From Lactiplantibacillus daoliensis (GTDB taxonomy: Bacteria > Bacillota > Bacilli > Lactobacillales > Lactobacillaceae), in assembly GCF_005405005.1 (NCBI RefSeq), contig NZ_BJDH01000003.1:62001-126000 (forward strand): DNA of 64,000 bases, written 5' to 3'. The position numbers and the translations under genes were made by a program. The notes beneath the pieces were generated by a model. It saw nothing but the letters and a program-made list of their open reading frames with translations. It did not search any database and was not told the DNA's origin. Shown here in pieces: positions 19,692 to 59,723 of the stretch. How positions within the stretch are numbered: position 1 is the stretch's first letter; each line of letters begins with the position of its first letter.

Positions 19692-19832
19692 GTCCGCTCG
19701 TCGCCGTGACGGGCTGGAACGCTGTGAACACGACTTGAAGCCGACAACCCACGTCTCCAAGCTCGGTTTTCCCTAAGCCACCAAAAGAGCGACTAAGGGA
19801 ATCCCACGGCTGAGCCCCGGCGACGAGCGGAC
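19692..19832. repeat. Structured repeat, family 2, copy A1
   Basis: A 141-bp unit closed by a perfect 15-bp inverted repeat, GTCCGCTCGTCGCCG (19692-19706) and its complement (19818-19832). Two inner hairpins are visible. Read on the minus strand, one loop has the pattern ACG...GG shared with the other copies. It lies divergent to copy A2 in the gyrB-gyrA gap. Confidence 0.75.
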
Positions 19833-19871
19833 TAATATTCAGTCCTCACAGTGTCAGGCTATGACGCTGGA

Positions 19872-20028
19872 GTCGACCAGTAATAACACCGTGGTAAGCC
19901 AATTAGCTGGATGTTTTACCCAGCTTAGTGGCTTGGCCAACTTTTCAGACGCGTTCTTCCGGCTGAAAAGCGCCCTGCAGACCGCTCTTTGGCTGCAGGT
20001 CTACCTCACAGTGTTATCACTGGTCGAC
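19872..20028. repeat. Structured repeat, family 2, copy A2
   Basis: A 157-bp unit closed by arms starting GTCGACCAGT (19872) and ending ACTGGTCGAC (20028). Three inner hairpins have stems AGCTGG/CCAGCT, CTTTTCAG/CTGAAAAG and CTGCAG/CTGCAG. The last two loops read ACGCGTTCTTCCGG and ACCGCTCTTTGG. A CCTCACAG motif precedes the right arm, as in copies D and E2. No coding potential. Confidence 0.78.
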
Positions 20029-20047
20029 GAAAGCAGCGAAATAACCG

Positions 20048-21994
20048 CTAGACGTCTAAGTCCTTAACGAACACAGCGTTGTCTTCGATAAATTCACGCC
20101 GTGGTTTAACTTGGTCCCCCATCAACATGGAGAACACGCCATCGGCATCCGCTGCATCTTCATCACGAACTCGAAGTAAGCGCCGTTTGTCGGGATCCAT
20201 CGTGGTTTCCCACAATTGTTCTGCATCCATTTCACCAAGCCCCTTGTACCGTTGTACAACAGGTTTTGGTGATGGCGCTAATTGACCAACGACTTCTTTT
20301 AATTCTTCATCAGAATCAATATACTTCACGAATTTACCTTGCCGCACTTGATACAACGGTGGCTGGGCAATATAGACGAATCCGGCATCAACAAGTGGCC
20401 GCATATAGCGATAGAACAAGGTCAATAACAACGTCCGAATATGGGCGCCATCGACATCGGCATCGGTCATGATGATCAATTTGTGATAGTTGGCTTTACT
20501 TAAATCAAAGTCACCGCCGAAACCAGTTCCCATCGCGGTAAATAGTGACCGAATTTCTTCGTTAGCCAAGATCTTATCGATGCTGGCTTTTTCGACGTTT
20601 AAAATCTTCCCACGAATTGGGAGGATTGCTTGCGTCAAACGTGAACGGCCTTGCTTGGCCGACCCACCGGCGGAATCCCCTTCGACAATGAACAATTCAC
20701 TGATTTCAGGATCTTTACTGGTGTTGTCAGCTAATTTACCAGGTAAATTACTGATTTCCAGACCGCTCTTTTTACGAGTCACTTCACGCGCCCGTTTAGC
20801 TGCAACCCGCGCTTTGGAAGCTAACGTCCCTTTATCGACAACTTTACGGCCGATGCTAGGATTTTCCATCAAGTACTTGCTGAAATGTTCAGAGAACAAG
20901 CGATCAACCGCAGCCCGCGCATCCGAGTTTCCTAATTTGGTCTTGGTTTGACCTTCAAATTGGGGATCTGGGTGTTTTACGCTGACAACGGCAGTCATGC
21001 CTTCACGCACATCTTCACCAGACAAGTTAGAATCATTATCTTTCAACATGCCATTCTTACGAGCGTAGTCATTAATGACCCGCGTTAAAGCGCGTTTGAA
21101 CCCTTCTTCATGGGTCCCACCTTCGTAGGTATGGATGTTGTTCGTGAATGTCATCAAATTACTGTGATAGTCATCCGTATATTGTAAAGCGACTTCAACG
21201 GTAATCCCGTTTTGTTCACCTTCGACGTAAATTGGTTCAGGGAACAAGACCGTTTTATTTTTATCGAGGAATTCAACATAGTGCCGAATCCCGCCTTCAT
21301 ACAAGAAGTCTTTTTCAGTGGGTTCTTCTGGCCGTTCATCGCGAATTGAAATTTGGAGACCTTTGTTCAAGAAGGCCAATTCACGAATCCGAGTCGTTAA
21401 AATATCAATATCATAAGTCGTGGTTTCTCGGAAGATATCTGGATCTGGCAAGAAATGGACCACGGTGCCATGCGCATCTTCTGGGCAAGTGTCGATGACT
21501 TTCATTGGCGTTTTGACTTTACCACGGGCAAAGTCCATGTAATAAACTTGACCTTCATGGAAAACCTTGACGTCTAGTTCCGTGGATAAGGCATTGACGA
21601 CCGAAGCCCCAACCCCATGTAACCCACCAGAAACTTTATAACCGCCACCGCCGAATTTACCCCCAGCATGGAGAATCGTGAAAACTGTTTCCAAAGCTGG
21701 CTTTCCAGTCTTTGCTTGCGTGCCAACTGGAATCCCACGACCATTATCAGTCACGGTGATACTATTGTCTTTTTCAACGGTCACGTGAATCTTGTCAGCA
21801 AAACCAGCTAACGCTTCATCAATCCCGTTATCGACAATTTCCCAGACTAAATGATGTAGTCCTTGACTACTGGTCGTCCCGATATACATACCGGGACGTT
21901 TCCGGACAGCTTCGAGGCCTTCCAAGACTTGAATTTGGCTGGCGTCATATTCGCGTGCCCGTTCAAGCTTGGTTTCTTTTTCATTTTCGGTCAA
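20048..21994 (-). CDS. gyrB: DNA gyrase subunit B
   Basis: ATPase subunit of gyrase. The 648-residue protein has the GHKL ATP site ([34 protein letters not shown]), the transducer, and a Toprim domain with [13 protein letters not shown] and [19 protein letters not shown]. The start is a TTG with AGGAGG 7 bp upstream, overlapping the recF end by 4 bp. Last gene of the S4-recF-gyrB unit before the structured gap to gyrA. Confidence 0.97.
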
Positions 21995-23115
21995 TGCGGT
22001 TCCTCCTCATGTAAAATGCCATGGTTAACTTCAAATACTTTGGGTTCATTAATTAATTTTCTTGCAACGCCATCCAAACTCGGCGTTGTCAAAAAAGTTT
22101 GAACTTTATTTTGAATCGCCGTCAACAGATGTGTCTGTCGTGCGGCGTCTAATTCTGATAACACATCGTCTAATAGCAAGACCGGATATTCACCCGTTTC
22201 AGCTTTCATAAGATCAATTTCAGCTAACTTCACCGACAAAGCAGTCGTTCGCTGTTGACCTTGCGAGCCAAAAGTCTGTACATTTTTACCATTGACGCTA
22301 AATTGAAGATCATCGCGATGTGGTCCCAGCAACGTTGTGCCCTGAAAAATTTCCTTGGTTTGTTGCTGCGCGTACATTTTTTGTAGCGTTTGATAGATTT
22401 GGTCCACCGACGTTAACTCCTCGGTGGCAACTTGCGTCACATAATGAAAGCTGAGTTGTTCCTGGTCCTGTGTAATTTCAGCATGGATCACTTGAGCCCA
22501 GTGTTCGAGTTGTTTTAACAGTTCTAAACGTTTGGCAATAATTTCAGCGCCAAACGCCGCCAACTGGTCCGACAACACCCCGAGGTATACCTTATCCTTA
22601 GCTTCATGATGATTTAACTGGCGTAAGTATTGATTACGCTGTTTCAGAATTGCTCGATACTGACTAAGGTTATAAAGATAGCGCGGACTCATTTGCCCGA
22701 ATTCCATATCCATGAAGCGGCGCCGAATTGACGGCGCCCCCTTCACAATCGATAGGTCTTCCGGTGCAAAGACGATCACGTTCAAATTGCCAATATATTG
22801 TGACAACTTGGCCTGTTCCAGGTGATTCACTTTGGCACGTTTACCTTTTTTGCCCAGTTCCAACTCTAACGGTAAGCTACCGGTTGCTTTATGTAACCGA
22901 CCCTTTAAAGTTGCCGTGGACGCCTGCCAGCGAATGAGTTCCTTATCGTTAGCCGTACGATGGCTACGGGTCAGCGCTAAAACATAAATGGCTTCTAGCA
23001 AGTTTGTCTTACCTTGGGCATTTTCGCCCAACAATACATTGACACCCTGGCTAAAAGTCACCGCTAACTGCTCATAATTCCGAAAGTCATGCAGTTCCAA
23101 ATTCTCTAAGTACAT
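21991..23115 (-). CDS. recF: DNA replication and repair protein RecF
   Basis: SMC-like ATPase that loads RecA at gaps. The 374-residue protein has Walker [16 protein letters not shown] near residue 30, the ABC signature [16 protein letters not shown], and Walker [14 protein letters not shown]. Its ATG directly abuts the S4-domain gene and its stop overlaps gyrB. The dnaN-S4-recF-gyrB order is the standard Firmicutes origin layout. Confidence 0.96.
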
Positions 23116-23352
23116 CTAATCAGTCGTTTCTGTCCGATTTGAGCGAATAAAAAATGACCCGTTCGCCTCAACTTCAATCGTGTCGCCGGGATAAAGCTTT
23201 CGACCACGTCGATCATCGGGTTCACCATTGACTAAGACTTTGGTCTCACGTAAAAACCACTTAGCCTGACCACCAGAACTAATAATGGCCTCTTCTTTTA
23301 ACATCTGTCCCAAAGTAATAAAGGACGTGTCAATCTGTACTGGCTGTTTCAA
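23116..23352 (-). CDS. yaaA: S4-domain RNA-binding protein YaaA
   Basis: Small protein of 78 residues with one S4 domain (ITLGQMLKEEAIISSGGQAKWFLRE, then VLVNGEPDDRRGRKLYPGDTIEV). Family members between dnaN and recF are thought to act in ribosome assembly; that is family knowledge and not shown here. Starts with TTG after AGGTGA. First gene of the recF-gyrB unit, about 80 bp after a consensus-like promoter. Confidence 0.93.
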   Translation of the reverse strand: MKQPVQIDTSFITLGQMLKEEAIISSGGQAKWFLRETKVLVNGEPDDRRGRKLYPGDTIEVEANGSFFIRSNRTETTD

Positions 23353-23431
23353 AATGTCACCTGCCTAACTTTCAATTACAAGCTATCAAACGTCTGTGCC
23401 GAGTGTTTTTGCACACTCCTCAACAGGTTAT

Positions 23432-23460
23432 ATTATACCTGTTTTATTATGAAAATTCAA
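23432..23460 (-). promoter_or_regulatory. Promoter for yaaA-recF-gyrB
   Basis: TTGAAT (complement of 23455-23460), a 17-bp spacer and TATAAT (23432-23437) on the minus strand. The -10 sits inside a small palindrome ACAGGT-N8-ACCTGT, which could be an operator. Confidence 0.8.
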
Positions 23461-23910
23461 TTTATAACGGCATTCAGAGCCATTTTAAGACGATTTAAGC
23501 AAAACTAATGTCGGGGTACTCACCTAGGGGTAAATTTGCTAGAATTCGAAAAATTTACGGATTTTCGCGAAATTGGTTAATTTTTTACATCAAAAGTTAG
23601 GTCAATTTCGTTTTCATACTGAAATAGACCTTAAATTGAGTCTATTTCGACCTGTTCGATTACAGCCTGAAACAGTTACATGCGCCGATAATGCTATTTT
23701 AAGCTCGCCAGACCTACTTTCTAATCCAATCAACGAGAATCGCTCAGATCGACAATCAGTCGACTTATTATCAAAACTGACCGTTGCTTTCCAAACTCAC
23801 GTCATCTTTCAAACTAGAAATTGTATAAACGTCACTTAACGATGTCACTTTAAAAGTTACACCAGTTGTAATCCTATGATTGCCAAGCGTTTTCAAACCT
23901 ATAAACCAAC
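23461..23910. other. Gene-free stretch between dnaN and yaaA
   Basis: About 450 bp. An 88-codon plus-strand frame (23573-23839) has no ribosome site and no recognisable domain, so I do not call it. A and T are frequent. I see no repeat or strong structure. Confidence 0.5.
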
Positions 23911-23948
23911 AAAAAAAGGCCTCCTATTTCGGTTGAAATTAGGTGACC
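23911..23948 (-). terminator. Terminator after dnaN
   Basis: An imperfect GC-ended stem around a GGTT loop, followed on the minus strand by seven T residues (23911-23917). It lies 30 bp after the dnaN stop. Confidence 0.8.
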
Positions 23949-23978
23949 TTTTGCGCTGATTGTATATTTATTCAGTAA

Positions 23979-25118
23979 TTAGAACGTCCGTACTGGCGTA
24001 ATCAATTGAATAAAGTTCTCGCCTTCTTCGGTTGGCACCAAAGTGAATGGACGCAATGCCATCGTGAACGAAATCTTGATCATCGCTTGGCCAAAGGAAC
24101 GGAGTGCTTCTTTCATGTAATCTGGGTTAAATGAAATTTCGAGTTCATCGCCATCTAACTCAGCGGGTTGCAACTGTTCGGTTACTTCACCAACATCGGG
24201 TGAGTTACCAAAAATCGTAATAGTCTTATCAGTTGGATTGACTGAGAAACGAACCACGTTATTGCGACTTTCATGTGAAAGCAAGGATGCCCGTTCAATC
24301 GCAGCGGATAAAGCAGGTGCCTCAATTTCAACGGTCGTGTTTGATTCTTTTGGAATCAATCGTGAGGTATCGGGGTAGTTTCCTTCCAGCAATCGTGAAT
24401 AGAACGAGGTGTTACCAAGGACAAAGAGCACTTGATTTTCAGATAAACGCATTTGCACGTCTGGGTTATCATCGCCGATCATCCGTGATAGTTCAGTCAA
24501 GCTTTTCCCAGGAATAATCACGTCGTAGTCGGCATTATTAGCTTCTGGTAACTTGATTTTCCGTTGGCTTAAACGATGAGAATCAGTAGCAACAGCCAAA
24601 AATTCACCATTAGCCAAAATAAAATGAACCCCAGTTAAAATCGGCCGGCTTTCTTGATTAGAAACCGCGATGACGGTTTGACCAATCAACTCTTTGAAAA
24701 CATCACCAGCCAAAGTAATGGTGTTGGTCGTATCAATTTCTGGCAGATGCGGATAATTTTCAGGATCTAAGCCATTAATTGTAAAGGAAGCGGCGCCAGA
24801 AGTAATTTGGGTTTGAAAGCCGTCGGTAACGGCAACTGTCATCGTATCTTCTGGTAACTTTTTAACGATTTCGCTAAAGAAACGCGCTGGTAACACAATT
24901 GAACCGGTATCTTCAACAACTAATGTATTGTTATCGTCGTCTGCTGGAATTGTTGTTTCAATGGAAATGTCAGCGTCGCTACCCGTTAAGGTAATGCCTT
25001 CAGTAGCAACGTCTAATTTTAGTCCCGTTAAAATGGGAATCGTTGTTTTTGATGAAATAGCGCGTTGAACATTATTTAACTCTTTAATAAATGCAGATCG
25101 ATTGATTGTGAACTTCAT
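23979..25118 (-). CDS. dnaN: DNA polymerase III beta clamp
   Basis: Ring-shaped sliding clamp that tethers polymerase to DNA. The 379-residue protein begins MKFTINRSAFIKELNNVQRAI and ends in LITPVRTF, like the family. Three repeated clamp folds can be traced (ATEGITLTGSDADIS; AVSNQESRPILTGVHF; DELEISFNPDYMKEALR). It follows dnaA by 173 bp, a gap that holds DnaA boxes. Confidence 0.97.
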   Translation of the reverse strand: MKFTINRSAFIKELNNVQRAISSKTTIPILTGLKLDVATEGITLTGSDADISIETTIPADDDNNTLVVEDTGSIVLPARFFSEIVKKLPEDTMTVAVTDGFQTQITSGAASFTINGLDPENYPHLPEIDTTNTITLAGDVFKELIGQTVIAVSNQESRPILTGVHFILANGEFLAVATDSHRLSQRKIKLPEANNADYDVIIPGKSLTELSRMIGDDNPDVQMRLSENQVLFVLGNTSFYSRLLEGNYPDTSRLIPKESNTTVEIEAPALSAAIERASLLSHESRNNVVRFSVNPTDKTITIFGNSPDVGEVTEQLQPAELDGDELEISFNPDYMKEALRSFGQAMIKISFTMALRPFTLVPTEEGENFIQLITPVRTF

Positions 25119-25194
25119 AACTGAATCCTCTCTTCTTCGTGATGTCTCTATATTAGATTAAGTAATAAAAGGTCGTAGTAATAGTAGAGCAGTG

Positions 25195-25291
25195 GGTAAT
25201 GTGGAAAAGTTTTAGAAATGCGATGACTGTCGAGTTTTCCACATGTGCATAAGTTGTGGAAAACTTTTTGAGTTATGCCCTTTTATCCACA
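25195..25291. other. DnaA-box cluster between dnaA and dnaN
   Basis: A perfect TTATCCACA box (25283-25291) ends next to the dnaA stop. Nearby are TTTTCCACA-type sites in both orientations (GTTTTCCACATG; TTGTGGAAAAC; ATGTGGAAAAG). Together with the upstream cluster this gives a bipartite origin like that of B. subtilis. Confidence 0.75.
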
Positions 25292-26653
25292 CTAAGCTTT
25301 AAGCTGACTTTTCAAATCTCCGATGGCTTGTTGAAGATCAAGGTCAGTTTTAAGTGCTGCTGCAATTTTATCATAGGCATGGATGACCGTGGTATGATCC
25401 TTACCGCCAAATTCATTCCCAATGCGCGGTAAAGAGCTATCCGTTAATTCGCGGGATAGGTACATTGCAATCTGTCGTGGCATAACGATTTGCTTATTAC
25501 GTTTTTTACCCTTTAATTCGGCCATTGTGACGTGATAATACTTCGCGACTTTTTCCTGAATGACCGGAATTGAGACTTCCGATAATTTATTGCTTAAATT
25601 GAGACTCTTCAAAGCATCTGCGACTAAACTTGTGGTGATTGGTGAGTTATTCAAACGTGAATAGGCTTGAACACGTGCCAAGGCACCTTCAAGTTCACGG
25701 ACGTTGGAATCAATTTGTCCCGCGATGTAACTTAACGTGTCATCGGGAATGTCGATGCCTTCTAAATCGGCTTTATTCCGTAAAATTGCGATCCGGGTTT
25801 CAAGATCCGGTGGTGTGATATCAACAGATAAGCCCCATTTGAATCGAGAAACTAGCCGATCTTGTAATTTTGGAATCTCGTTTGGTAACCGATCAGAAGT
25901 GAGGACGATTTGTTTATCATCTTCATATAAAGCATTGAAAGTATGGAAGAACTCTTCTTGCGTTGCTTCCTTATTAGCAAAGAATTGAATATCGTCGACC
26001 AACAGGAGATCAACGTTACGGTATTCTTCCCGAAAAGATTCTTGCGTCCCCGTTTGGATGGCGTTGATCAAGTCATTCGTGAAAGCTTCACTCGTCACGT
26101 ATTTAACCTTGCTATTCGGGTCGGTCTCTAATAATTTGTTACCAATAGCGTGCATCAAGTGGGTCTTGCCCAACCCGACGCCCCCATAGAAAAACAACGG
26201 ATTATACATTGTGCCTGGTTCTTCGGACACGACTAAAGCCGCGGCGTGCGCCATTTGGTTACCTTTACCAATGACAAAGCTTTCAAATGTATATTTTGGG
26301 TTGAGTTTCGTTTCCCGCATAAATGTGGGGGTAGTTGCAGTGGCTGCTTCACCAGATGCAACGTTACCGGTAGTCGCTTGCGATTTTTTCGTAAGCTGCT
26401 GACGTTCTTCTTCAGTTATCATCACTGGCGTAATCTGCTCGTTAGTTGCTTGGAAGGCATAATCTGTAAATTTGGCCGCCAAGTTGTTTTCCCAATAATC
26501 GCGATGTAATTTAGTCGGAACTTCAATTGTCATCTGTAAATTATTGAGTTGGAGTGGTTTCGCCGGTTCGACAAACGTCTGAAAAGTGATCGATGAAAGA
26601 TCACCTTTCATGGAGAACTTAATGATATTCCATAAGTCATTACGTTCCAGCAC
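25292..26653 (-). CDS. dnaA: Chromosomal replication initiator DnaA
   Basis: AAA+ protein that opens the origin. The 453-residue chain has an N-terminal interaction domain, a short linker rich in Thr and Ala, Walker [17 protein letters not shown], Walker [15 protein letters not shown], and the DNA-binding signature [15 protein letters not shown]. The start is GTG at 26653, with AAAGGGG upstream. A DnaA box (26709-26717) lies just upstream of its promoter -10, consistent with autoregulation. Confidence 0.97.
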
Positions 26654-26686
26654 GTGGATACCCCTTTTCTTAAAAAACGTAATTCT

Positions 26687-26695
26687 ATTCTAGCA
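26687..26695 (-). promoter_or_regulatory. dnaA promoter (extended -10)
   Basis: TGCTAGAAT on the minus strand, an extended -10 about 35 bp before the GTG start. No clear -35 is seen; the TTTTCCACA DnaA box at 26709-26717 falls near the -35 region. Confidence 0.6.
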
Positions 26696-26704
26696 TGAAC
26701 AACT

Positions 26705-26980
26705 GGAGTTTTCCACAAGTGGACAAACAGATGTTAAAATAAATCACAGGGTGTTTTTAGTGTTGTCCACAGGATGTTCAAAAAAAGTCCTTAGCTTAAA
26801 TTTGTTCGAGTTATACACAACGGAGCGTTCAAAATTAAGCTTGCTACAATAGACTTTAGAAGAGTTATACACACTCAAAATAACTCTTGTGGATAACTAA
26901 ATCACAGGCTGTCATTTTGTCGATAAGCCTGTGCACAAATTGGGGACAGCTAAAAAGGCTACGAGGTGTTTCCACAAGCT
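26705..26980. other. oriC: oriC, upstream DnaA-box cluster
   Basis: Six boxes or near-boxes lie in 270 bp: TTTTCCACA (26709), TTGTCCACA (26763), TTATACACA (26811 and 26865), TGTGGATAA (26888, reverse) and GTTTCCACA (26968). It lies between divergent dnaA and rpmH, where gene orientation switches from minus to plus. AT-rich sequence follows toward rpmH. The layout is that of a Firmicutes oriC. Confidence 0.85.
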
Positions 26981-27040
26981 TTTTCCTAAAAGGATTAAAT
27001 GTATAGGGCGTTTTAATATAAGGGCAAAACAATTTTATGG

Positions 27041-27069
27041 TTTTCAAAATTGACAATATATGCTATAGT
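27041..27069 (+). promoter_or_regulatory. Putative rpmH promoter
   Basis: Extended -10 TGCTATAGT (27061-27069) about 90 bp before rpmH, with a weak TTTTCA at -35 spacing (27041-27046). A TTGACA at 27050 is too close to this -10 to pair with it. Confidence 0.5.
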
Positions 27070-27160
27070 ATTCAGGAAATGCGTTTAGAGTTTGACTGCG
27101 TTTTGAAAATAACGACTTAATCGAATTGATTCATGTCATTATAGAGAAGGAGGTGTCATG

Positions 27161-27295
27161 ATGAAGAGAACTTACCAACCAAAGAAGCGGCATCGTCAAC
27201 GTGTCCATGGTTTCCGCAAACGGATGAGCACCAGCGATGGCCGTAAAGTGTTAGCCCGTCGACGCCAACGAGGCAGAAAAGTATTGTCTGCATAG
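27161..27295 (+). CDS. rpmH: 50S ribosomal protein L34
   Basis: Very basic 44-residue ribosomal protein: [20 protein letters not shown], then a C-terminal [12 protein letters not shown]. Length and sequence are those of L34. The second of two adjacent ATGs (27161) is chosen because family members begin MKRTYQP and AGGAGG then lies at a good distance. First gene right of oriC, followed by its own terminator. Confidence 0.97.
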
Positions 27296-27323
27296 GCCAC
27301 TGATAATCAGTGGCTTTTTCTTT
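27296..27323 (+). terminator. Terminator after rpmH
   Basis: Stem GCCACTGA/TCAGTGGC with a TAA loop, then TTTTTCTTT. It starts directly at the rpmH stop. Confidence 0.85.
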
Positions 27324-27359
27324 ACAGTCCTAGACCTTCATTAGTCTAGGACTGTAAAG
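27320..27359. repeat. Perfect 16-bp hairpin between rpmH and rnpA
   Basis: CTTTACAGTCCTAGAC (27320-27335) pairs fully with 27344-27359 around an 8-nt loop. No T-run follows the right arm, so it is not a standard terminator. It lies in the leader of rnpA. Confidence 0.7.
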
Positions 27360-27410
27360 TTATGTAGCAATTCGCTCAGGTTAGCTTGAGTGCACACATG
27401 GAGATGGATT

Positions 27411-27755: not shown

Positions 27756-27770
27756 AGTGAGGACATTCGT

Positions 27771-28604: not shown

Positions 28605-28612
28605 ATACAAAT

Positions 28613-28642: not shown

Positions 28643-28773
28643 TAGAGTGGTAAAATCAACGGGTTGCTAGCGAGCATTATCGTGGCTAAATCATTGCTCG
28701 GCGTTTTTCCGAGCAGTGATTTAGCTGGGATAAGCGGAACTCGCAGTTGGTTTTACCACGTTTCGACTATAAA
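28643..28773. repeat. Structured repeat, family 1, copy B
   Basis: About 130 bp closed by GTGGTAAAATCAAC (28647) and GTTGGTTTTACCAC (to 28759), with a long inner hairpin GCTAAATCA...TGATTTAGC. It ends in CCACGTTTCGACTATAAA. The other copy at 36172 is in the opposite orientation and keeps that end sequence, but its stems differ in sequence. Confidence 0.75.
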
Positions 28774-36171: not shown

Positions 36172-36298
36172 TTTATAGCCGAAACGTGGAACAAAAGGCT
36201 GCGACCGCCGCTTAGCTACGAAAGTCGAACGATTGAAAATGCCAATCATTCGACTTTCTAGGCTATGTTCGGTAGCAAACCGCCTTTTGTCCCACTCT
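36172..36298. repeat. Structured repeat, family 1, copy C
   Basis: In reverse orientation relative to copy B. It begins TTTATAGCCGAAACGTGG and is closed by ACAAAAGG (36191-36198) and CCTTTTGT (36283-36290). An inner 16-bp hairpin (36220-36235 with 36243-36258) has one mismatch. Between the pepC/HTH unit and degV, without coding potential. Confidence 0.75.
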
Positions 36299-47764: not shown

Positions 47765-47850
47765 GTAAAAATAACTAAAAGTTGAAAGTTAAAAAGTTGC
47801 CGGTTTGCTCGAGGACATCAACAATTAGGTCATGAAAATTAGTCGATTAT

Positions 47851-48010
47851 GGCCGTTTCTGGTTGTTGCGGATAACATGCGGACGAGGGACCGGTTCAAG
47901 CCTTAGGAACGTCTTGACCCTCGACCGGCAGCTTTGCCAAAACCGCAAATCTCCCGGACCGTCCTTTGGCTGGCGCCGTCCCTCACAGCACATCGGTTTT
48001 GACTGATGGA
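47851..48010. repeat. Structured repeat, family 2, fused copy D
   Basis: The left part (GGTTGTTGCGGATAACATG, then GGTTCAAG...CTTGACCC and CCGG...CCCGG hairpins) follows copy E1. The right part (CTTTGGCTGGCGCC, CCTCACAGCACATCGG, TTTTGACTGA) follows copy E2. The middle found in the E pair is absent, and the outer arms of the two halves do not pair well. It lies in a gap of more than 350 bp without a gene. Confidence 0.65.
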
Positions 48011-48121
48011 GCGCTAGTTTGGGCAGGTCTACTTTAGATGTGATGGTTACTGGTACAACGACATGTGTAATGCTATTGAGTCTTTCAACCTAGTAAAAAT
48101 AACTATTTAGGAGTGATTAAC

Positions 48122-51534: not shown

Positions 51535-52116
51535 ATGGGGAAAAAGAATAGCTTCTCTCAGCAGGCGGTTGATTATTTGAAGGATCTAGGCGGCAGCGCT
51601 AATGTCGATGAGATCGTTAATTGTGCCTCACGAATTCGAGTCACTGTGAATGATCCGACAGCGGTGGCTTCCAACGAGCAATTTATTGCGGATGGTGCCA
51701 TTACGGTTGTTCGACGTGGCAAAGCGATTCAAGTAATTGTCGGTTTAGATGTCCCCCAAATACTTAGTGTAATGCGGCAACTCATATCCGGTCTGGACAT
51801 TTATGATGCTGAACTTGATGAATATGGTCTGACACCGATTGGCGAGAAAGCCACGATGCTTTATGAGTGTTTTGGTTTAGATGGCAATATTCAGCAAATT
51901 ACGGTGGTTAATGATCAGATTATGGTACAGGTTAAAGATGTCTCATGGGTAGATCCATTTGATATCATTTTACAGCTAGGAATTGGGGTAACGTCCGTTA
52001 AAACTGTTGATAACCGAATATTTGTTGATATTGCGGATGCTACCGATGTTGCGCGGCAAATGTTGATGATGAATGTGACTAAATCGAAAGAATTGATGCG
52101 GCATGACAGTGATTAA
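51535..52116 (+). CDS. Stand-alone PTS EIIB with a degenerate second EIIB domain
   Basis: A 193-residue soluble protein. The first 85 residues form a glucose-family EIIB with phosphocysteine C30 in DEIVNCASRIRVTV. The second half repeats the EIIB pattern (ATMLYECFGLDGNIQQITVV) but has valine where the cysteine should be. The arrangement equals residues 450-621 of the EIICB at 45277, so this is likely a copy of its C-terminal part without the membrane domain. ATG at 51535 chosen because AGGAGG sits directly against the earlier ATG. Confidence 0.85.
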   Translation: MGKKNSFSQQAVDYLKDLGGSANVDEIVNCASRIRVTVNDPTAVASNEQFIADGAITVVRRGKAIQVIVGLDVPQILSVMRQLISGLDIYDAELDEYGLTPIGEKATMLYECFGLDGNIQQITVVNDQIMVQVKDVSWVDPFDIILQLGIGVTSVKTVDNRIFVDIADATDVARQMLMMNVTKSKELMRHDSD

Positions 52117-52486
52117 AAGATTAATTCATATTGAGTTACCAACAAATAGTGTTTATCATGTTGCTACGGATGAGCACAAAATGAAAATTGTGATGAAGTG
52201 CGAAGATACTAATATTTATGCACCGGTGGCAGGCGTTATCTCAGGTTATTCACAGCGCGATCGAACGATTGATATCATGATTGATGAGTCAAAGACATTA
52301 CTAGTGATGCACTTGCCAGCAGTAGCCACTGAGCTGATTACTTTTTATGTGAACTTAGGCGAGCGGGTCACTAGCGGCTTAAAAATAGCGGATTTGAAAG
52401 CGCTAACGAGTAATTTGTTGATTACAACAGTTGATCTAGACGAAAATTGCCATTACGAGGTCTGTAAACGGCACTCATTAATTTGA
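52103..52486 (+). CDS. Divergent EIIA(Glc)-like protein
   Basis: A 127-residue protein with the beta-sandwich pattern of EIIA (DTNIYAPVAGVISGYSQRD, then LNLGERV-like VNLGERVTSGLKIADL). By alignment with the neighbour at 52501, H70 matches the phosphoacceptor histidine. The partner histidine is threonine (T55), and the KMMGDG and GLDTV segments are missing or changed. It is therefore probably inactive or has another role, such as regulation. It overlaps the EIIB gene by 14 bp. Confidence 0.7.
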   Translation: MTVIKRLIHIELPTNSVYHVATDEHKMKIVMKCEDTNIYAPVAGVISGYSQRDRTIDIMIDESKTLLVMHLPAVATELITFYVNLGERVTSGLKIADLKALTSNLLITTVDLDENCHYEVCKRHSLI

Positions 52487-52500
52487 ACGGAGGATTTATT

Positions 52501-52986
52501 ATGTTTAAACTATTTAAGAAGAACAAAACAGAAGCAGTGGTTGCACCAGCTACAGGTCAATTGATTAAGATTGAATCGGTCTCAGACGATGTGTTTTCAC
52601 AAAAAATGATGGGCGATGGTTTTGCAGTTGAACCAGCACATAATGATATCGTTTCGCCAGTTGCTGGAACAATTTCAACCGTTTTCCCGACCAAACACGC
52701 CATTGGGATCACTACTGATGAAGGCCTTGAAGTCTTAGTTCATATGGGACTCGATACCGTTGAATTAAATGGTGAACCCTTCGAAATGCTCGTTAAACCT
52801 GGAGAACATGTTGAACCAAACACAGCTCTTGCAACCATGGATTTGGACAAGGTTAAAGCTGGTGGTAAAGGGACGACTATCGTCATCGTCTACACAAATA
52901 TGGATAAGATTGATAGCGTTCCGACAGTCGAACCTCAATATGTTGATCACGGTGACTCAGTGGGCACATTAACTTATCAAAAGTAA
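52501..52986 (+). CDS. PTS EIIA component, glucose family
   Basis: Soluble phosphocarrier of 161 residues. All signature parts are present: VFSQKMMGDGFAVEP, SPVAGTISTVFPTKHAIGI with the supporting H66, and LEVLVHMGLDTVEL with phosphoacceptor H81. It could serve the EIICB at 45277, which lacks its own EIIA. ATG at 52501 follows GGAGG; an in-frame ATG at 52483 is less likely. Last gene of the RpiR-linked unit, followed by a shared terminator. Confidence 0.93.
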   Translation: MFKLFKKNKTEAVVAPATGQLIKIESVSDDVFSQKMMGDGFAVEPAHNDIVSPVAGTISTVFPTKHAIGITTDEGLEVLVHMGLDTVELNGEPFEMLVKPGEHVEPNTALATMDLDKVKAGGKGTTIVIVYTNMDKIDSVPTVEPQYVDHGDSVGTLTYQK

Positions 52987-53004
52987 TGTGAGTCTGAATG
53001 ATTA

Positions 53005-53047
53005 AAAAGGGCGTACAGCTAGGTCGACCTAGTTGTACGCCCTTTTT
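53005..53047. terminator. Bidirectional terminator between EIIA and gntR
   Basis: A long stem GGGCGTACA-CTAGG/CCTAG-TGTACGCCC around TCGA, flanked by A5 and T5 runs, ends both convergent genes. Confidence 0.9.
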
Positions 53048-53058
53048 GTGACAACATG

Positions 53059-53778
53059 TTACCAATACTCGCTGCGATGGACATCGACGACGAATTTGGA
53101 ATGGTCTTCGACAAATTGTGATGTGGAATATTCGAAAGCGTCGCCTTTTTGGTCATATGCGATTTGTTCAATGACTAAAAGTGGTGTGCCGACTGTGACG
53201 GCCAAGGCTTGGCTAGATTCTTCGGTAGCGGCTTGGGCATAGACGACCCGGCGTGCATCGGTCATGAAGATATTCTTTTTGACTCCGAGATAATCGTAAA
53301 TGGAGCCAGCGAGGATCTTTTTGTCGAGCGGCGCAATGCGTGTTGGCATGATGGTATGTTCAAAACTGTAATGTTTCCCATCACGATAGCGAACGCGCTT
53401 AATTTCGTAAATGGGTTCATTAGCGGCAATTCGTAAATTTTTTTGTTCGTTTTCATCGGGTAACCGCGCACTGAATAGCAAAATCTTGCTAGTGATCTTT
53501 TGATCACGGTGAGTATAGGTTGTGCCAATGGGGAGGTCTAATGGCAGTAGTTCGCCATTATTATTGGCAATCTGCGACCGGACAATTGTTCCGGAACCTT
53601 GCTGACTGTAGATCAGCCCTTCATCACTCAATAGCTGCAATGACTTACGCAGCGTTAACCGACTTACTTTATATTTGTGTGCTAATGCTTCCTGAGTTGG
53701 CATAGCCGACCCAGCGCGATAATGATTTCGTAAAATGTCGCGTTTAATGTCAGAATAAATTTCTTTATACCTATACAA
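53059..53778 (-). CDS. GntR/HutC-family regulator of the mannoside operon
   Basis: A 239-residue repressor-type protein. The winged helix (residues about 5-70: IKRDILRNHYRAGSAMPTQEALAHKYKVSRLTLRKSLQLLSDEG) is followed by a UTRA ligand domain (about 95-235: RVRYRDGKHYSFEHTIMPTRI). Divergent from the EIIC-GH38-GH125 operon and therefore its likely regulator. Start TTG at 53778 behind GGGGTG. Effector unknown; a mannose phosphate is a reasonable guess. Confidence 0.88.
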   Translation of the reverse strand: MYRYKEIYSDIKRDILRNHYRAGSAMPTQEALAHKYKVSRLTLRKSLQLLSDEGLIYSQQGSGTIVRSQIANNNGELLPLDLPIGTTYTHRDQKITSKILLFSARLPDENEQKNLRIAANEPIYEIKRVRYRDGKHYSFEHTIMPTRIAPLDKKILAGSIYDYLGVKKNIFMTDARRVVYAQAATEESSQALAVTVGTPLLVIEQIAYDQKGDAFEYSTSQFVEDHSKFVVDVHRSEYW

Positions 53779-53813
53779 CTTTTTTCACCCCAACCGTCCT
53801 GATTAATAGTCAT

Positions 53814-53822
53814 ATTGTAGCA
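53814..53822 (-). promoter_or_regulatory. gntR promoter (extended -10)
   Basis: TGCTACAAT on the minus strand, about 35 bp before the TTG start. Confidence 0.5.
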
Positions 53823-53893
53823 CAATTAAATTATATGTATACAAATATTGACAAAATTATAGAAATTTGGCAATACAAATCGGAATATTCCTC

Positions 53894-53921
53894 TTTACAT
53901 TTGTACTATCCTTGCTATAAT
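53894..53921 (+). promoter_or_regulatory. Promoter of the mannoside operon
   Basis: TTTACA (53894-53899), 16 bp, then TATAAT (53916-53921) preceded by TG (extended -10). The spacer holds TTTGTACTA; similar ATTTGTATTG-like sequences occur nearby and may be GntR sites. Confidence 0.75.
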
Positions 53922-53931
53922 CAAAAGTGTT

Positions 53932-53945
53932 AGAAAACGCTTTCT
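53932..53945 (+). promoter_or_regulatory. cre-like site in the mannoside operon
   Basis: AGAAAACGCTTTCT matches the CcpA consensus at 12 of 14 positions. It lies 10 bp after the -10, a roadblock position. Confidence 0.65.
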
Positions 53946-53976
53946 GAAAAATAACTTATCAAAGGGGTAGCAGATT

Positions 53977-55326
53977 ATGGCCTTCAATGTCGAAAAGTTC
54001 CAAGAACCGTTACTTAAAGCTTCCGGTTGGGTGCAACAAAATAGTATTTTGCAAGCAATTAAAAACGCTTTCATCATGACGATTCCTTTCTCAATCATTG
54101 GTTCTTTCTCCAACTTGATTAAGATGCAACTTGATGCCTGGATTAAAAATGCTCATATTACCAATGTTTGGCTCACAAATACGAGTGAGTTGTTTGGTTA
54201 CTTAAATACCGCCACATTAGGAATTATTGGAATTATTGTTGTTTTGAGTTCGTCATATTCATATGCGCGGGAGTTAAAAAAGAAGTATCAAGAAGTTAAC
54301 ATTTTCTTGGCAGTTATTTTAGCACTAGCTGCTTACTTCGTCATGGTGCCAAAAAATATCAACTTTGCTGATCCTAAAGCCAAAGTGATTGAAGGTTTTG
54401 CGACTAGTTTCTTCGACTATTCTGGGATGTTTACCGGTTTAATTGTTGGGATGATTTCTGTTTATATCTATGCTCGCCTAAGTAAGAGCAAGATTACGAT
54501 TAAAATGCCTGATAGCGTCCCACAAAATATTTTTGATTCGTTTGCATCATTGATCCCAATTACTGGGGCTTTACTGATGTTCGGGATTGTCCGGATTATT
54601 ATTCAAAGTTTAGGTTTCGTTTCATTAATTGAATTAATCTCTGAAGTTTTGATTAAGCCACTCTTGACTGTCGGAACTGGGTTACCAGCGATTATTGTGG
54701 TGATTATCGTTGAACAAATTCTGTGGTTCCTTGGGTTACACGGATTCAACATCGTTTGGGGAGTCATGTCCGCATTCTGGTTACCGGTCTTCTTACAAGA
54801 TGTTGCTAAGTATGCCGCAACGCAAAGCTTTGCCGGTATCACGATTGCACCAAACACGATGACTAACGTTTATGCCATGATTGGTGGTTCTGGTGCGACC
54901 TTTGGGCTGATTATTGCCATGTTGATTTTTACCAAAAAGGGTGAAAAAGAACGTGAAATTGCCAAATTAGGATTTATTCCAGGTTGCTTCGGGATTAATG
55001 AACCAATTATCTTCGGGTTACCAATTGTTTTAAATCCAATTATGTTTATTCCATGGTTAGTTGTCCCGCTGATGAATGCGATTATCGCTTACACGGTCAC
55101 TAAAATTGGTTGGGTTGTGCCACTGGTTGTTCTGAACTCTGGTAATGAACCGATCTTCTTGAGTACTTGGATCTTAGGTGCGTTCCACACGAGTCCCGTT
55201 GTCTTGACCTTGGTTTTAGTTATTTTAGATGTCTTGCTCTATTCACCATTTGTCATTTTAAATCAACGAAGCGAACGCGCACAATTTGCAAAGCAAGCTA
55301 AGGCTGCCGCTAAAGAAGCTGCCTAG
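53977..55326 (+). CDS. PTS EIIC, cellobiose/lactose family
   Basis: Membrane permease of 449 residues with about ten helices (AFIMTIPFSIIGSFSNLI, GIIGIIVVLSSSYSYA). Conserved features of the Lac/Cel family include the FLGLHGFNIVWGVMS region and CFGINEPIIFGLPIVLNP. No EIIA or EIIB is encoded nearby, so partners must come from elsewhere. Its position before alpha-mannosidase genes suggests an alpha-mannoside or manno-oligosaccharide as substrate. A strong AAAGGGG precedes the ATG. Confidence 0.9.
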   Translation: MAFNVEKFQEPLLKASGWVQQNSILQAIKNAFIMTIPFSIIGSFSNLIKMQLDAWIKNAHITNVWLTNTSELFGYLNTATLGIIGIIVVLSSSYSYARELKKKYQEVNIFLAVILALAAYFVMVPKNINFADPKAKVIEGFATSFFDYSGMFTGLIVGMISVYIYARLSKSKITIKMPDSVPQNIFDSFASLIPITGALLMFGIVRIIIQSLGFVSLIELISEVLIKPLLTVGTGLPAIIVVIIVEQILWFLGLHGFNIVWGVMSAFWLPVFLQDVAKYAATQSFAGITIAPNTMTNVYAMIGGSGATFGLIIAMLIFTKKGEKEREIAKLGFIPGCFGINEPIIFGLPIVLNPIMFIPWLVVPLMNAIIAYTVTKIGWVVPLVVLNSGNEPIFLSTWILGAFHTSPVVLTLVLVILDVLLYSPFVILNQRSERAQFAKQAKAAAKEAA

Positions 55327-55351
55327 CCATCGTTAGAAAGAGAGTCGACTT

Positions 55352-57973
55352 ATGAAAAAAGTTTCAGTAGTGGCACATACGCATTGGGATTTTGAATGGT
55401 ACTTTACCCGTCAAGATGCTCGTGTACAGTTTGCCTATCATATGGATGAAGTTTTAGCAGCGCTGGCAAGTAACCAACTGGATTATTACTTGTTAGATGG
55501 TCAAATGGCCATTATTGATGACTATTTACAAAGTGATCCAGATCAAAGTGCTGTAATGCGAAAATTCATTAAGGCCGGCCGCTTATTTGTTGGCCCTTGG
55601 TACACGCAAATTGATGAAATGGTGACGACCGGTGAATCGATTGTCCGAAATTTGCAGCAAGGTCTTAAACTCTCAGCCGAACTTGGCGGGACCATGCCAA
55701 TTGGTTATTTACCGGATTCCTTTGGTCAGGGCCAAGATATGCCGAAAATCTATAATGGTTTCGGCATTGATAAAGCAATCTTTTGGCGAGGAATGCCCAA
55801 AGAGAAGTCTGCACGTTACTTCTATTGGACGAGCGATGATGATTCTAAAGTATTAGTGACCAATTTACGTAATGGCTATCCCGTCGGTGCCGAACTGATG
55901 GAGAATGATAACTATGCCGAATTACTGCATAAGATTAGTTCTGATACAGCGGTCACCAACCTGGCTTTACCAGTTGGTGGCGATCAGCGCCCAGTTGATT
56001 TCAACCTTAAGGAACGGATTGCAGCGGCCAATGCCGCTCAAGATGAGTATGAATTAGCTGAAAGTACTTATCCTGAATATTTTAAATCACTCGCAAAAGA
56101 GACCACATTACCAACTTATCAAGGTGAATTTGTGGATCCTAGTACTTCTAAGATTCACCGCGGTATCTATTCTTCTCGAGCGGACCTTAAGCAACTTTAT
56201 GATCGCATTGAACGCTTGATGACGTATGAGGTTGAACCATTGATGGCGATTGCCCAAGTGCATGGTATTCCAACGAAACAAGGCCTCGTCGGCGAAATTT
56301 GGAAGGCAGTTGCTAGAGGCCAAGCCCATGATTCATCGGGTGGTTGCAATAGCGATGAGACTAATCGTGACATTTTCCATCGGGGAACGGTTGCGCTGCA
56401 ACTTGGTATTTCACTAAAAGCCTACTTGTTGCGTAAATTGAGTAGCAATGTGCAGGCCGATTTAGACTTGTTTTTCTGGAATGCGGCGCCTAGTTCACTG
56501 ACAGCTGTTAAAGAAGTCAAAATTGAGTCACGCTTACCGAAGTTTATGTTAACCGATGAGCAACAGCAACCAGTGCCTTTCCAAGTCCTGAGCCAGCGAA
56601 CGGTAGATTGGGCGACCTTACGGCATGACTCGGCCGAAATGACCGCAGACTTGTCTTATGAGACAACGGTGGCAGTGTCGTTAACGATTCCAGCAACGGA
56701 CTGGACTGGATTAAAAGTGACGGAAATTGCAGGGAACTTCGGTGACCAAGCAACCACTAATATGATTGAAAATGAGTATTATCAAGTTTCTGCTAACTCG
56801 ACCGGGATTACTTTGATTGACAAGCGTACCCAAACCACGTATCGGGATTTCCTAAAATTAGAAGATGGTGGCGATGAAGGCGACACGTATGACTATTCAC
56901 CGGCCTATCAAGATTGGCTGTTAAACTTAGACTTCAAATCAGCTCAAGTGGCAGGCATTGCGGGACCGCTGATGTCACAATTGAAACTCACTGGTAGCTG
57001 GCGATTGCCAGCTGATTTGACTGAACGAGCTGATCAAAAGCGGAGTGCCAACATCCCTTATACGTTGACTTTAACTTTAAAGCAGGCAGATTCAGTGTTG
57101 GGTGTCGACTTAACGGTAGACAATCAAGCTAAGGATCATCGACTACGCTTGATGATTCAGACCGATGTGCAAGCACAAGCAAGCTACGCAGATACGCCTT
57201 TTGGCTATATCGAACGGCCGGTGATTGATCCGCATTTAGCCGATTGGCGCGAAATCGGGTACCATGAAGAACCGACAACTTTACGGCCATTCTTACACTT
57301 TGCCAATACCCACGATATGCAACATAGTTGGACCTGGCTGGGATTAGGTGAGAAGGACTTTCAGCTTGTCGGTAACCAGTTTGATCAGTTGGCAATCACG
57401 TTATATCGCGGTGTCGGCTACCTAGGCCGGCCGGACTTGTTACGGCGACCAAGCGATGCTTCTGGGTTGCAAACGAAGTATGTGCCAACACCAGATAGCC
57501 AACTGCTAGGAACGATGACCTTTAGTGGGGGCCTTTGTTTGGATGCGACATTTGATCCAGCATGGTTGCAAGCTCGTCACCATACCTTGTCGGCAGGGAC
57601 GCTGGCGTATCAGAATCAGACTTTAGATCGATTTACGAGCCCGATTCAATACTTCCAAATTAATCCAATGACTGCTGGGTTAAAACATGCGCCCATCGTT
57701 GAGGCTAAGACACCGCAATTGGTTATTAGTGCTTTAACAACGACCACGGATCGGACCGGTTTTGTTTTACGGGTTTATAATCCAACGAAACAAGCCTTGC
57801 ACCATCCTGGTGACCTGGTATTGGGTCAAAATAGCGTCATCAAACAACTTAACTTAAACAACGTTGTGACCAAACATCTGGCCACGAACGTGCTAGAATT
57901 AGCTTTAGCGGACTTTGGTCCTGGTGAAATTCGGACCTATGGCATTTATCCAGTTCAATCGGCTTGTTGCTAA
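55352..57973 (+). CDS. Alpha-mannosidase, GH38
   Basis: Retaining, metal-dependent enzyme that removes alpha-linked mannose. The 873-residue protein begins with the zinc-binding HTHWDFEW (residues 9-16). The nucleophile D122 is in YLPDSFGQGQDMP. RGQAHDSSGGCNSDETN carries further metal ligands. The C-terminal half is the usual beta-sandwich domain. There is no signal peptide, so it acts in the cytosol after uptake. 26 bp after the EIIC gene. Confidence 0.93.
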   Translation: MKKVSVVAHTHWDFEWYFTRQDARVQFAYHMDEVLAALASNQLDYYLLDGQMAIIDDYLQSDPDQSAVMRKFIKAGRLFVGPWYTQIDEMVTTGESIVRNLQQGLKLSAELGGTMPIGYLPDSFGQGQDMPKIYNGFGIDKAIFWRGMPKEKSARYFYWTSDDDSKVLVTNLRNGYPVGAELMENDNYAELLHKISSDTAVTNLALPVGGDQRPVDFNLKERIAAANAAQDEYELAESTYPEYFKSLAKETTLPTYQGEFVDPSTSKIHRGIYSSRADLKQLYDRIERLMTYEVEPLMAIAQVHGIPTKQGLVGEIWKAVARGQAHDSSGGCNSDETNRDIFHRGTVALQLGISLKAYLLRKLSSNVQADLDLFFWNAAPSSLTAVKEVKIESRLPKFMLTDEQQQPVPFQVLSQRTVDWATLRHDSAEMTADLSYETTVAVSLTIPATDWTGLKVTEIAGNFGDQATTNMIENEYYQVSANSTGITLIDKRTQTTYRDFLKLEDGGDEGDTYDYSPAYQDWLLNLDFKSAQVAGIAGPLMSQLKLTGSWRLPADLTERADQKRSANIPYTLTLTLKQADSVLGVDLTVDNQAKDHRLRLMIQTDVQAQASYADTPFGYIERPVIDPHLADWREIGYHEEPTTLRPFLHFANTHDMQHSWTWLGLGEKDFQLVGNQFDQLAITLYRGVGYLGRPDLLRRPSDASGLQTKYVPTPDSQLLGTMTFSGGLCLDATFDPAWLQARHHTLSAGTLAYQNQTLDRFTSPIQYFQINPMTAGLKHAPIVEAKTPQLVISALTTTTDRTGFVLRVYNPTKQALHHPGDLVLGQNSVIKQLNLNNVVTKHLATNVLELALADFGPGEIRTYGIYPVQSACC

Positions 57974-57980
57974 ACGACCA

Positions 57981-58009
57981 AACACCCTGCGTAACTGCGG
58001 GGTGTTTTA
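57981..58009 (+). terminator. Small hairpin between GH38 and GH125 genes
   Basis: ACACCC...GGGTGT stem with TTTTAATT. A weak, internal terminator or attenuator; GH125 has its own AGGAGG site 16 bp further on. Confidence 0.5.
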
Positions 58010-58025
58010 ATTAGGAGGGGCTACA

Positions 58026-59297
58026 ATGAAACTTGATTTAAACGACCTAACAGTAAAAATTGACGCTTTCGCTGCCAAGCAGACGTTGTCCACTGATGAA
58101 ACGACGACTTTATTCCGTCACTTATTAAGTGATGCGGTCGCTAAAGCAACGAACGCCGAAGCCGATGGCACATTCTTTGTTAAGACTGGTGACATTCCCG
58201 CCATGTGGTTACGGGATGCGACTTTTCAGGTGCTACCTTATGTCAAACTCATGTCGGTCATTCCCGAGTTAAAAACGGTATTAGTAGGTGTCTTGCGTCG
58301 CGAGTTACGTTATATTCAACATGATCCATACGCAAATGCGTTTAATCAGACGGCATCAGGTGCTCATTGGAGTGATGATGAGTCTGATCAGCCCATCTCT
58401 GACTTAGTTTGGGAACGTAAATTTGAAATTGACTCGCTCTGTGCCCCGCTATTTTTGGCACTGAAACTAATTGAACAGACGGATCAAGTGGATTTTTTGG
58501 ATGCCGAATTCTGGCAGACGCTAGCGCTAATCATGACGGTCTTGGAAACGGAGCAGCATCATGAACAGTCAACTTATTACTTCAAACGGGTCGACTGTCC
58601 AGCTAATGACACGCTGACGAACGATGGCAAGGGGACACCAGTGGGTTACACTGGAATGGTCTGGGATGGCTTTCGGCCGAGTGACAATGCGTGTGAGTAC
58701 GGTTATCATGTGCCATCAAACTTGTTCTTAATTGCCGTTTTGACCCGGCTAAGCCCGTTTATTCCGAATGAGCTTGGTGACCTCAAGGATCGCGTCACAA
58801 CGTTGGTTGCAGCCATTCAACAGGGGATTACTCGTTATGCATTGGTGACATTGCCAACTGGTCAAGTCGGCTATGCGTATGAAGTGGATGGGCTCGGCCA
58901 TCAGAAATTAATGGATGATGCCAATGTCCCAAGCTTGCTGGCGCTACCGTTTATTGGTTATACCACTATTGAGGATGTCATTTATCAAAATACCCGTGAG
59001 TTCATTCTAAGTGCTCAGAATCCTTATTATTATCGTGGTAAGGTATTAGCAGGGATTGGCAGTAATCATACGCCGGAAGCTTATGTCTGGCCGATTAGCC
59101 TGGCTATGGAGGGCTTGACGTCGACGGATCAAACGGTCAAAGTTGCCCAACTTGAAAAGATAGCGACAACGGATAATCAAACTGGTCAATGTCATGAAAG
59201 TGTCAGCGTCGATGATGTTAGTCAGTATACCCGGGACTGGTTCTCGTGGGCGAATATGACCTACTGTGAATTAGCATTAGATGTCTTAGGGGTTTAG
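58026..59297 (+). CDS. Exo-alpha-1,6-mannosidase, GH125
   Basis: Inverting exo-mannosidase of 423 residues. The family signature MWLRDATFQVLPY (D64 region) and WDGFRPSDNACEYGYHVPSNLF are present, as is YYYRGKVLAGIGSNHTPEAYVWPISLAMEGLTS. GH38 plus GH125 next to a PTS permease would together strip alpha-1,3/1,6-mannosides. In S. pneumoniae the same enzyme pair processes N-glycan mannose; that comparison is from family knowledge. Confidence 0.92.
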   Translation: MKLDLNDLTVKIDAFAAKQTLSTDETTTLFRHLLSDAVAKATNAEADGTFFVKTGDIPAMWLRDATFQVLPYVKLMSVIPELKTVLVGVLRRELRYIQHDPYANAFNQTASGAHWSDDESDQPISDLVWERKFEIDSLCAPLFLALKLIEQTDQVDFLDAEFWQTLALIMTVLETEQHHEQSTYYFKRVDCPANDTLTNDGKGTPVGYTGMVWDGFRPSDNACEYGYHVPSNLFLIAVLTRLSPFIPNELGDLKDRVTTLVAAIQQGITRYALVTLPTGQVGYAYEVDGLGHQKLMDDANVPSLLALPFIGYTTIEDVIYQNTREFILSAQNPYYYRGKVLAGIGSNHTPEAYVWPISLAMEGLTSTDQTVKVAQLEKIATTDNQTGQCHESVSVDDVSQYTRDWFSWANMTYCELALDVLGV

Positions 59298-59334
59298 GCC
59301 CCTCGGCGTACGTTGCTCGACTCTTTCCGCTTCC

Positions 59335-59507
59335 GGTTGTTACTGATAACATGCGAACGTGGGACCGGTTCAAGCCATAGAAACGTCTTGAACCTCGCCC
59401 GGAAACTTTGCCAAAACCGCAAATTTCCCGGACCGTCCGTGGTGTAAGGCCGGCAAAAGAACGCCGGTCAAACGCCACCTGCACGTCCGATGCTATCAGC
59501 AACAACC
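59335..59507. repeat. Structured repeat, family 2, copy E1
   Basis: A 173-bp unit closed by GGTTGTTACTGATAACAT (59335) and ATGCTATCAGCAACAACC (ending 59507). Inner hairpins are GGTTCAAG...CTTGAACC, CCGGAAA...TTTCCCGG and GCCGGC...GCCGGT. Read on the minus strand, the loops have the ACG...TTCT...GG pattern of copies A2 and E2, so it is inverted relative to E2. Confidence 0.75.
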
Positions 59508-59562
59508 TCCAGCTAAGTCAGTAGTTCATTTTTGGATAAATGCGTTATTTACGCTTAGCGGA

Positions 59563-59723
59563 GTCAGTCAGAATCGGTGTGCAGTGTCGGCAAGATTAGT
59601 CAGCGTTCTTGGCTGACTAATCTCGCGGGGCAATTCAAAGACGTGTTTTATCGGCTTTGAAGTGAGGTGCCAGACCGTACCTTGGCTGGCGCCGTCCCTC
59701 ACAGCACACCGATTCTGACTGAC
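59563..59723. repeat. Structured repeat, family 2, copy E2
   Basis: A 161-bp unit closed by a perfect 20-bp repeat, GTCAGTCAGAATCGGTGTGC (59563-59582) and its complement (59704-59723). Three inner hairpins: AGATTAGTCAGC/GCTGACTAATCT (perfect), TTCAAAG/CTTTGAA and GGTGCCAG/CTGGCGCC. Their loops are similar to those of A2. CCTCACAG precedes the right arm. Confidence 0.78.

Follow-up and report, generated by a model that had tools for sequence, protein, structure and literature searches.

The stretch of Lactiplantibacillus daoliensis DNA analysed here, 64,000 nucleotides long (contig NZ_BJDH01000003.1, positions 62,001 to 126,000; the window), carries multi-hairpin repeats named pair A (units A1 and A2), pair E (units E1 and E2) and element D. 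Our data indicate that they probably belong to a family of non-autonomous mobile elements in which the active part is an outward-facing pair of structured units. These copies lie where the original prediction, made from the letters alone, had placed them. It had suggested that they may be RNA or transposable palindromic elements. Mobility is borne out by target duplications, an empty site and presence or absence between species; a fold acting on one strand is favoured, and the RNA is a predicted one.

Structure and covariation of the paired units

Each unit is about 130-180 nt long and consists of a closing stem enclosing two or three hairpins. The copies in the window are as follows; R1 and R2 are the two models of the unit, and fold z-scores compare each unit with 200 dinucleotide shuffles.

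19683-20038, no strand: whole pair A, bounded by CGCTTC and GAAAGCAGCG (limits placed by eye); lies within the gyrB-gyrA gap at 19615-20047
19692-19832, minus strand: unit A1, left unit of pair A; R2 match 19688-19836, 49.2 bits; closing arms 15 bp, 100% complementary; fold z -5.9
19872-20028, plus strand: unit A2, right unit of pair A; R2 match 19868-20032, 108.4 bits; closing arms 22 bp, 91%; fold z -7.6
47775-48094, no strand: element D; both terminal repeats; interior is the left half of E1 fused to the right half of E2
59327-59802, no strand: extent of E; core pair 59327-59729, then flank to the right terminal repeat at 59789-59802
59335-59507, minus strand: unit E1, left unit of pair E; R2 match 59331-59511, 108.6 bits; closing arms within its computed fold; fold z -9.9
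59508-59562, no strand: central variable spacer of pair E
59563-59723, plus strand: unit E2, right unit of pair E; R2 match 59559-59727, 154.4 bits; closing arms 24 bp, 96%; fold z -12.3

The two units of each pair face opposite ways, as had been proposed, with the left unit on the minus strand, the right unit on the plus strand and both 5' ends toward the short spacer. The shared plan that had been proposed for A1, A2, E1, E2 and the right half of D holds for these four units, for none of which was any shuffle equally stable. D as a whole gave z-scores of -1.1 and +0.5. Up to three inner hairpins are present per unit, and A1 has two, not three. D was rejected as an independent folded unit. 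Its interior joins positions 1-189 of the element consensus to positions 418-556, and it is no better folded than shuffles because it is a deletion fusion of an E pair. R2 matches it in part, on the minus strand at 47888-47964 (40.9 bits), and the sequence on either side of it, at 47767-47774 and 48095-48102, reads as an 8-bp direct repeat without mismatch, AAAAATAA. E1 and E2 had been counted as two; they are one element. A left terminal repeat was looked for at E and none was recognisable.

The loop pattern AGACG...GGCT is present in A1, A2, E1, E2 and D, with chance occurrences at 19488 and 44325. In A2, D and E2 the motif CCTCACAG precedes the right arm, and it occurs once more in the spacer of A, at 19844; A1 has TTCACAG in its place, and E1 has neither. 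A tRNA scan gave no match, no promoter-like signals were found in 59300-59800, and A and E gave no hits when scanned for promoters and terminators.

Different stems with kept loops had been taken as a sign of selection on structure, and abundant compensatory change in the stems bears this out. When 38 right-hand units taken from several species were aligned, they followed one structure of 65 pairs, with 92.0% of cells paired, compared with 74.4% in shuffled and at most 42.2% in slid controls. Both sides changed in 53 of the 65 pairs, giving 421 such cells against a shuffled mean of 115 (none of 500 shuffles was as high); these shuffles keep the relatedness among rows. A second alignment, of 49 matches from 30 loci, was 92.6% paired with 886 double-change cells against 243 in shuffles. 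This alignment was made by fitting to the model and is biased in its favour, 21 of its 30 loci come from other genera, and one row is an antisense duplicate. The near-invariant loop letters are AGACG...GGCU, AGACCG...UUUGGCU and then CCCCACAG. Across genera the units start near TTAGC-CGGAG and end near CCGNAG-GCG, with little conservation outside, and inspection suggests that the two edges might pair on either side of a GGA/GGA purine loop.

Mobility of the E subfamily

The E subfamily is a miniature transposon, as follows from its terminal repeats, its target duplications and an empty site. Used as a query against its own genome, the E pair found 40 near-full-length places, the query included, at 84-100% identity (40 of 113 candidates scored). 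When 30 E copies were aligned with their flanks, the repeat ran past the pair to 14-bp terminal inverted repeats, CTAAAGGTTGAAAG and CTTTCAACCTTTAG, so that the full E-type element is about 560 bp long. With up to two mismatches, the terminal repeat matches the genome 129 times, against 29 times for the reversed pattern. Of 40 further terminal-repeat loci, 38 match the element consensus, many of them internally deleted, and L094 and L098 do not match. The element is multicopy, and none of 78 classifiable groups of units overlaps an open reading frame (ORF) longer than 450 nt.

Both terminal repeats were found in 46 copies, 32 from the own genome and 14 from five relatives. In 15 of these, 7-8 of the 8 flanking letters are repeated, where shuffling predicts 0.55, and in several more the flanking repeat matches at an offset of one. 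The site of copy L014 is uninterrupted at locus L129 of Lactiplantibacillus nangangensis, which defines a 559-bp insertion with the flanking repeat TTTTTTAA.

The terminal inverted repeats hold for the E subfamily and D; by eye, the other subfamilies have other ends. Six copies in genomes G004 and G016 and copy L041 of G014 are related to E over the pair (about positions 82-484) and lack the terminal-repeat flanks, which are present in another G014 copy, L054. Ends of the type TTGCCGC...GGTTGG were seen by eye in the A family of G020 and in a short-pair subfamily of the own genome. Since pairs occur without this shell or with other ends, the constant part is the pair of units. One short-pair copy in the own genome (L341, about 1014-1337) has TGATTAACC on each side, possibly a target duplication of 8-9 bp belonging to a subfamily whose terminal repeats differ.

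Carriers and helpers were also looked for. An autonomous copy with a gene in a long central spacer was considered and rejected, the ORFs of two wide-spaced pairs being unlike a transposase by eye. E had no match in plasmid and phage records, nor did a locus of another genus in plasmids. Eleven hits in viral contigs searched with a loop pattern match the model over only 18-22 positions at 10.0-14.6 bits, so that no viral carrier was found.

Distribution and insertion sites

The original prediction would have fallen if relatives held no further copies; they are present in the own genome, the genus and the family. R1 gave at least 114 matches in the own genome and at least 130 in G020 (150 candidates scored in each), and R2 at least 147 in the own genome (147 of 150). 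The candidates scored in the own genome were 150 of 662 for R1 and 150 of 600 for R2; nine per genome were scored in the family search and seven in the class search. In the Lactobacillaceae, 70 of 301 genomes match, the own included, in 12 of 40 genera. In the class, 4 of 398 genomes match: the own, two from one genus of another family, and one weakly (expected value, E, 7.6e-4). Among the matches listed for the E1 pattern, the named genomes are Lactiplantibacillus pingfangensis, L. nangangensis, L. xiangfangensis, a metagenome bin and one Rhodopseudomonas, the last of which (L122) was taken as chance. The loci of G004, G010, G013 and G016 overlap named Lactiplantibacillus genomes and are not independent of the named-species loci, and L243 was left out of the 20 loci of G020.

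Neighbouring units within 700 bp of each other face outward in 40 of 45 cases; five are in tandem and none faces inward. This count kept 79 of 92 named loci and 150 of 153 matches, L122 being left out. The 78 classifiable groups lie between tandem genes in 42, convergent genes in 29 and divergent genes in 7 cases, against 259, 37 and 57 of 353 control gaps, an enrichment between convergent genes (29/78 vs 37/353, Fisher p 6.8e-8). Classification was possible for 29 of 30 own copies, and the figures there are 15, 12 and 2, against 18, 2 and 5 in the control (p 0.006).

Presence and absence were compared between species, and the sites differ, as the empty site of L014 and the gap between gyrB and gyrA illustrate. 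Pair A fills this gap in a minus-strand run of dnaA, dnaN, recF, gyrB and gyrA (17044-26653; gene names from NCBIfam), an order that identifies the replication origin region. The gap could be read in 20 of 21 genomes of the genus, G009 giving no match. In 16 of these 20 it measures 49-216 bp and has no model match. Units were found by model in the own genome (433 bp), G013 (451 bp) and G020 (298 bp), and G010 (184 bp) has a remnant there, which scores 14.3 bits (E 0.044) with the model and is found by blastn too. The element in G013, G020 and G010 is opposite in orientation to the own copy, and inversion of pair A in place is one possible account of these differences.

The same pattern occurs elsewhere. 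At L003 compared with L101 and L170, L010 with L126, and L008 with L043, related elements occupy a shared gap in opposite orientations between species; at L011 and L019 the orientation is the same as in relatives. The insertion points at L008 are about 10 bases apart by eye, and this difference means that independent insertion into a shared gap explains the locus. The opposite orientations in common gaps may reflect insertion hot spots or inversion, and independent insertion is likely for at least one E locus.

In the genus from another family, 9 of 40 genomes match, with one model match per matching genome and one tandem second unit. This genus is probably Streptococcus, to judge from an Rfam match. 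Nine of the ten loci examined lie between purD and purE (L322, L323 and L329-L335; tblastn, NCBIfam names). L334 has two units in tandem there and the other purD-purE loci have single units. L322 and L323 match the model at 60.7 and 31.1 bits and overlap a partial match to Rfam family RF02616, SSRC8_2 (positions 152-209 and 140-237, E 2e-9 and 6e-10). In these two regions, the only ones run, the SSRC8_2 scores of 38.1 and 39.8 lie below the cut-off of 72 bits.

Two further near-palindromes were seen in the window. One, of 113 bp at 28647-28759, has the ends GTGGTAAAATCAAC and GTTGGTTTTACCAC and a 25-bp inner stem; it bears no evident likeness to the units and looks like another short palindromic repeat. 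The other, of 110 bp at 36186-36295, has the ends GTGGAACAAAAGGC and GCCTTTTGTCCCAC and a 23-bp inner stem, and may belong to a palindromic repeat family of its own.

Role of the fold

If one strand acts, G-U pairs should be tolerated more than A-C mismatches on that strand, in stems that are dominated by Watson-Crick pairs. The counts were 327 G-U to 194 A-C on the minus strand of E1 (172 rows) and 335 to 151 on the plus strand of E2 (106 rows), giving 662 to 345 cells on the outward strands. Of 106 columns with unequal counts, 74 are rich in G-U and 32 in A-C (sign test 5.5e-5). The model-fitted alignments gave 36 to 13 and 41 to 8 columns. Antisense duplicates were dropped, leaving 48 of 49 rows in alignment A3 and 141 of 150 rows in alignment A2 (an alignment, not unit A2), and identical rows were dropped in the E1/E2 count. 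The G-U excess favours the view that the outward strand acts in single-stranded form.

Variants among the own copies (53 and 51 rows, near-identical rows merged) bear on the kind of selection. Private variants show no asymmetry (21 G-U, 23 A-C), and their density per site is 0.44 and 0.51 in stems compared with 0.52 and 0.62 outside. Variants common to two or more copies have densities of 0.53 and 0.66 in stems and 0.85 and 1.28 outside. Because shared variants are depleted in stems and private ones hardly, the fold seems to serve spreading. Selection would act on the spreading lineage, followed by near-neutral decay after insertion. We propose that each unit folds on the strand reading outward from the spacer, into a closing stem with up to three hairpins, and that a trans-acting factor may recognise this fold, either as RNA or as single-stranded DNA. 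It would be needed for propagation of the element itself rather than by the host genes at each site. The copies would decay once inserted, and in a few lineages single units have apparently been kept at one place, between purD and purE.

An unlikely alternative is a regulatory RNA family that serves the host, acting in cis within transcripts (for example at 3' ends, in processing or in read-through) and kept for regulation of its neighbours. It would suit a structure conserved over 12 of 40 genera, the single units at purD-purE, two of them weakly matching an RNA detected by Northern blotting (SSRC8), and the tolerance of long copies between gyrB and gyrA. However, the private mutations of the own copies look near-neutral, there is no common neighbour gene, the copies are enriched between convergent genes, and the sites differ between species.

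It is improbable that the palindromes act as double-stranded DNA cruciforms, through protein binding or chromosome structure, so that no single strand matters. Both strands are indeed strong folders (at 59341, for instance, with -82.2 and -66.9 kcal/mol), and Watson-Crick pairs far exceed G-U pairs, but a cruciform predicts equal numbers of G-U and A-C, and the G-U excess in cells and columns was found in units lying on opposite genomic strands. An ordinary miniature transposon whose fold is a functionless by-product of an old internal inverted duplication would account for the terminal repeats, target duplications and internal deletion forms, but is very improbable given covariation far above shuffled and slid controls, near-invariant loops and pairs without the shell.

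Several observations weigh against a mobile family with a structured outward-facing pair as its working part. No transposase was recognised among the proteins recurring beside the units at 109 loci, where products were judged by eye. These were frames inside repeats, ordinary enzymes and transporters, and the terminal repeats were not compared with insertion sequence collections. No conserved promoter lies upstream of the aligned units across genera. The G-U excess is about 2 to 1 and fits RNA and folded single-stranded DNA alike; taken by itself, the 38-unit alignment does not reach significance (25 to 16 columns, p 0.21). Placement of nine of ten second-family loci at purD-purE suggests host use there. 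Finally, the E-type shell cannot be the sole vehicle, since the pair occurs without E-type terminal repeats in three genomes.

The original prediction knew of no named family that fits, and no Rfam 15 family matches A or E. Rfam 15 gave no match in the whole window at the gathering threshold and none on the A and E regions at E up to 5 (D was searched at gathering only), and at E up to 0.1 there was none for 12 loci of the genus and other genera. Searches of one open-access paper library showed no description of these repeats. In kind, the family is one of non-autonomous mobile elements, like BOX or other miniature transposons. According to an account of Streptococcus pneumoniae repeats (PMC3049150), one genome holds 125 BOX and 110 RUP, which have terminal repeats, target duplications and a strong predicted fold and are regarded as parasites mobilised in trans; BOX, RUP and SPRITE are likewise enriched between convergent genes. 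The likeness to BOX and RUP extends to copy number, terminal repeats, target duplications, fold and convergent-gene preference. BOX, however, is a chain of boxA, boxB and boxC modules, and the present four-helix units in outward pairs are set apart from it by description. That account reports that the S. pneumoniae repeats are very rare in streptococci other than S. mitis and that BOX-type repeats are also common in S. suis, whereas the present units were found in a different family, in 12 of its 40 sampled genera. Miniature inverted-repeat transposable elements in general, such as Correia and Nezha in the same account, are also short, non-coding and multicopy, with terminal inverted repeats, target duplications and a paired interior; here, in contrast, the interior covaries across genera, has near-invariant loops and occurs with and without the shell. 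What sets the present family apart is that covariation maintains its structured unit across many genera, in outward pairs with an optional shell.

According to PMC3675131, SSRC8 of S. pyogenes was detected by Northern blot and its ends were mapped; it lies beside a gene for a cell envelope proteinase rather than between purD and purE. Two second-family regions match both our model and, weakly, SSRC8_2, but the A and E copies of the window have no match to SSRC8_2. A possible but doubtful extension is that the moving part of this parasitic element is an unrecognised, family-wide class of structured RNA. Two outward RNAs, whose fold is inherited more than their sequence, would be recognised in trans for mobilisation or insertion tolerance and sometimes be kept by the host as a single-copy regulatory RNA, as at purD-purE and in SSRC8-like form.

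With more than 100 matches per genome in both genomes counted and a presence in 12 of 40 genera of the Lactobacillaceae, these units were not found in Rfam 15, and the models built here would annotate them. Hundreds of natural variants of one fold are available, so that one can put to a direct test whether selection on small bacterial repeats acts on RNA, on folded DNA or on neither. The insertions between gyrB and gyrA offer tests of their effect on expression.

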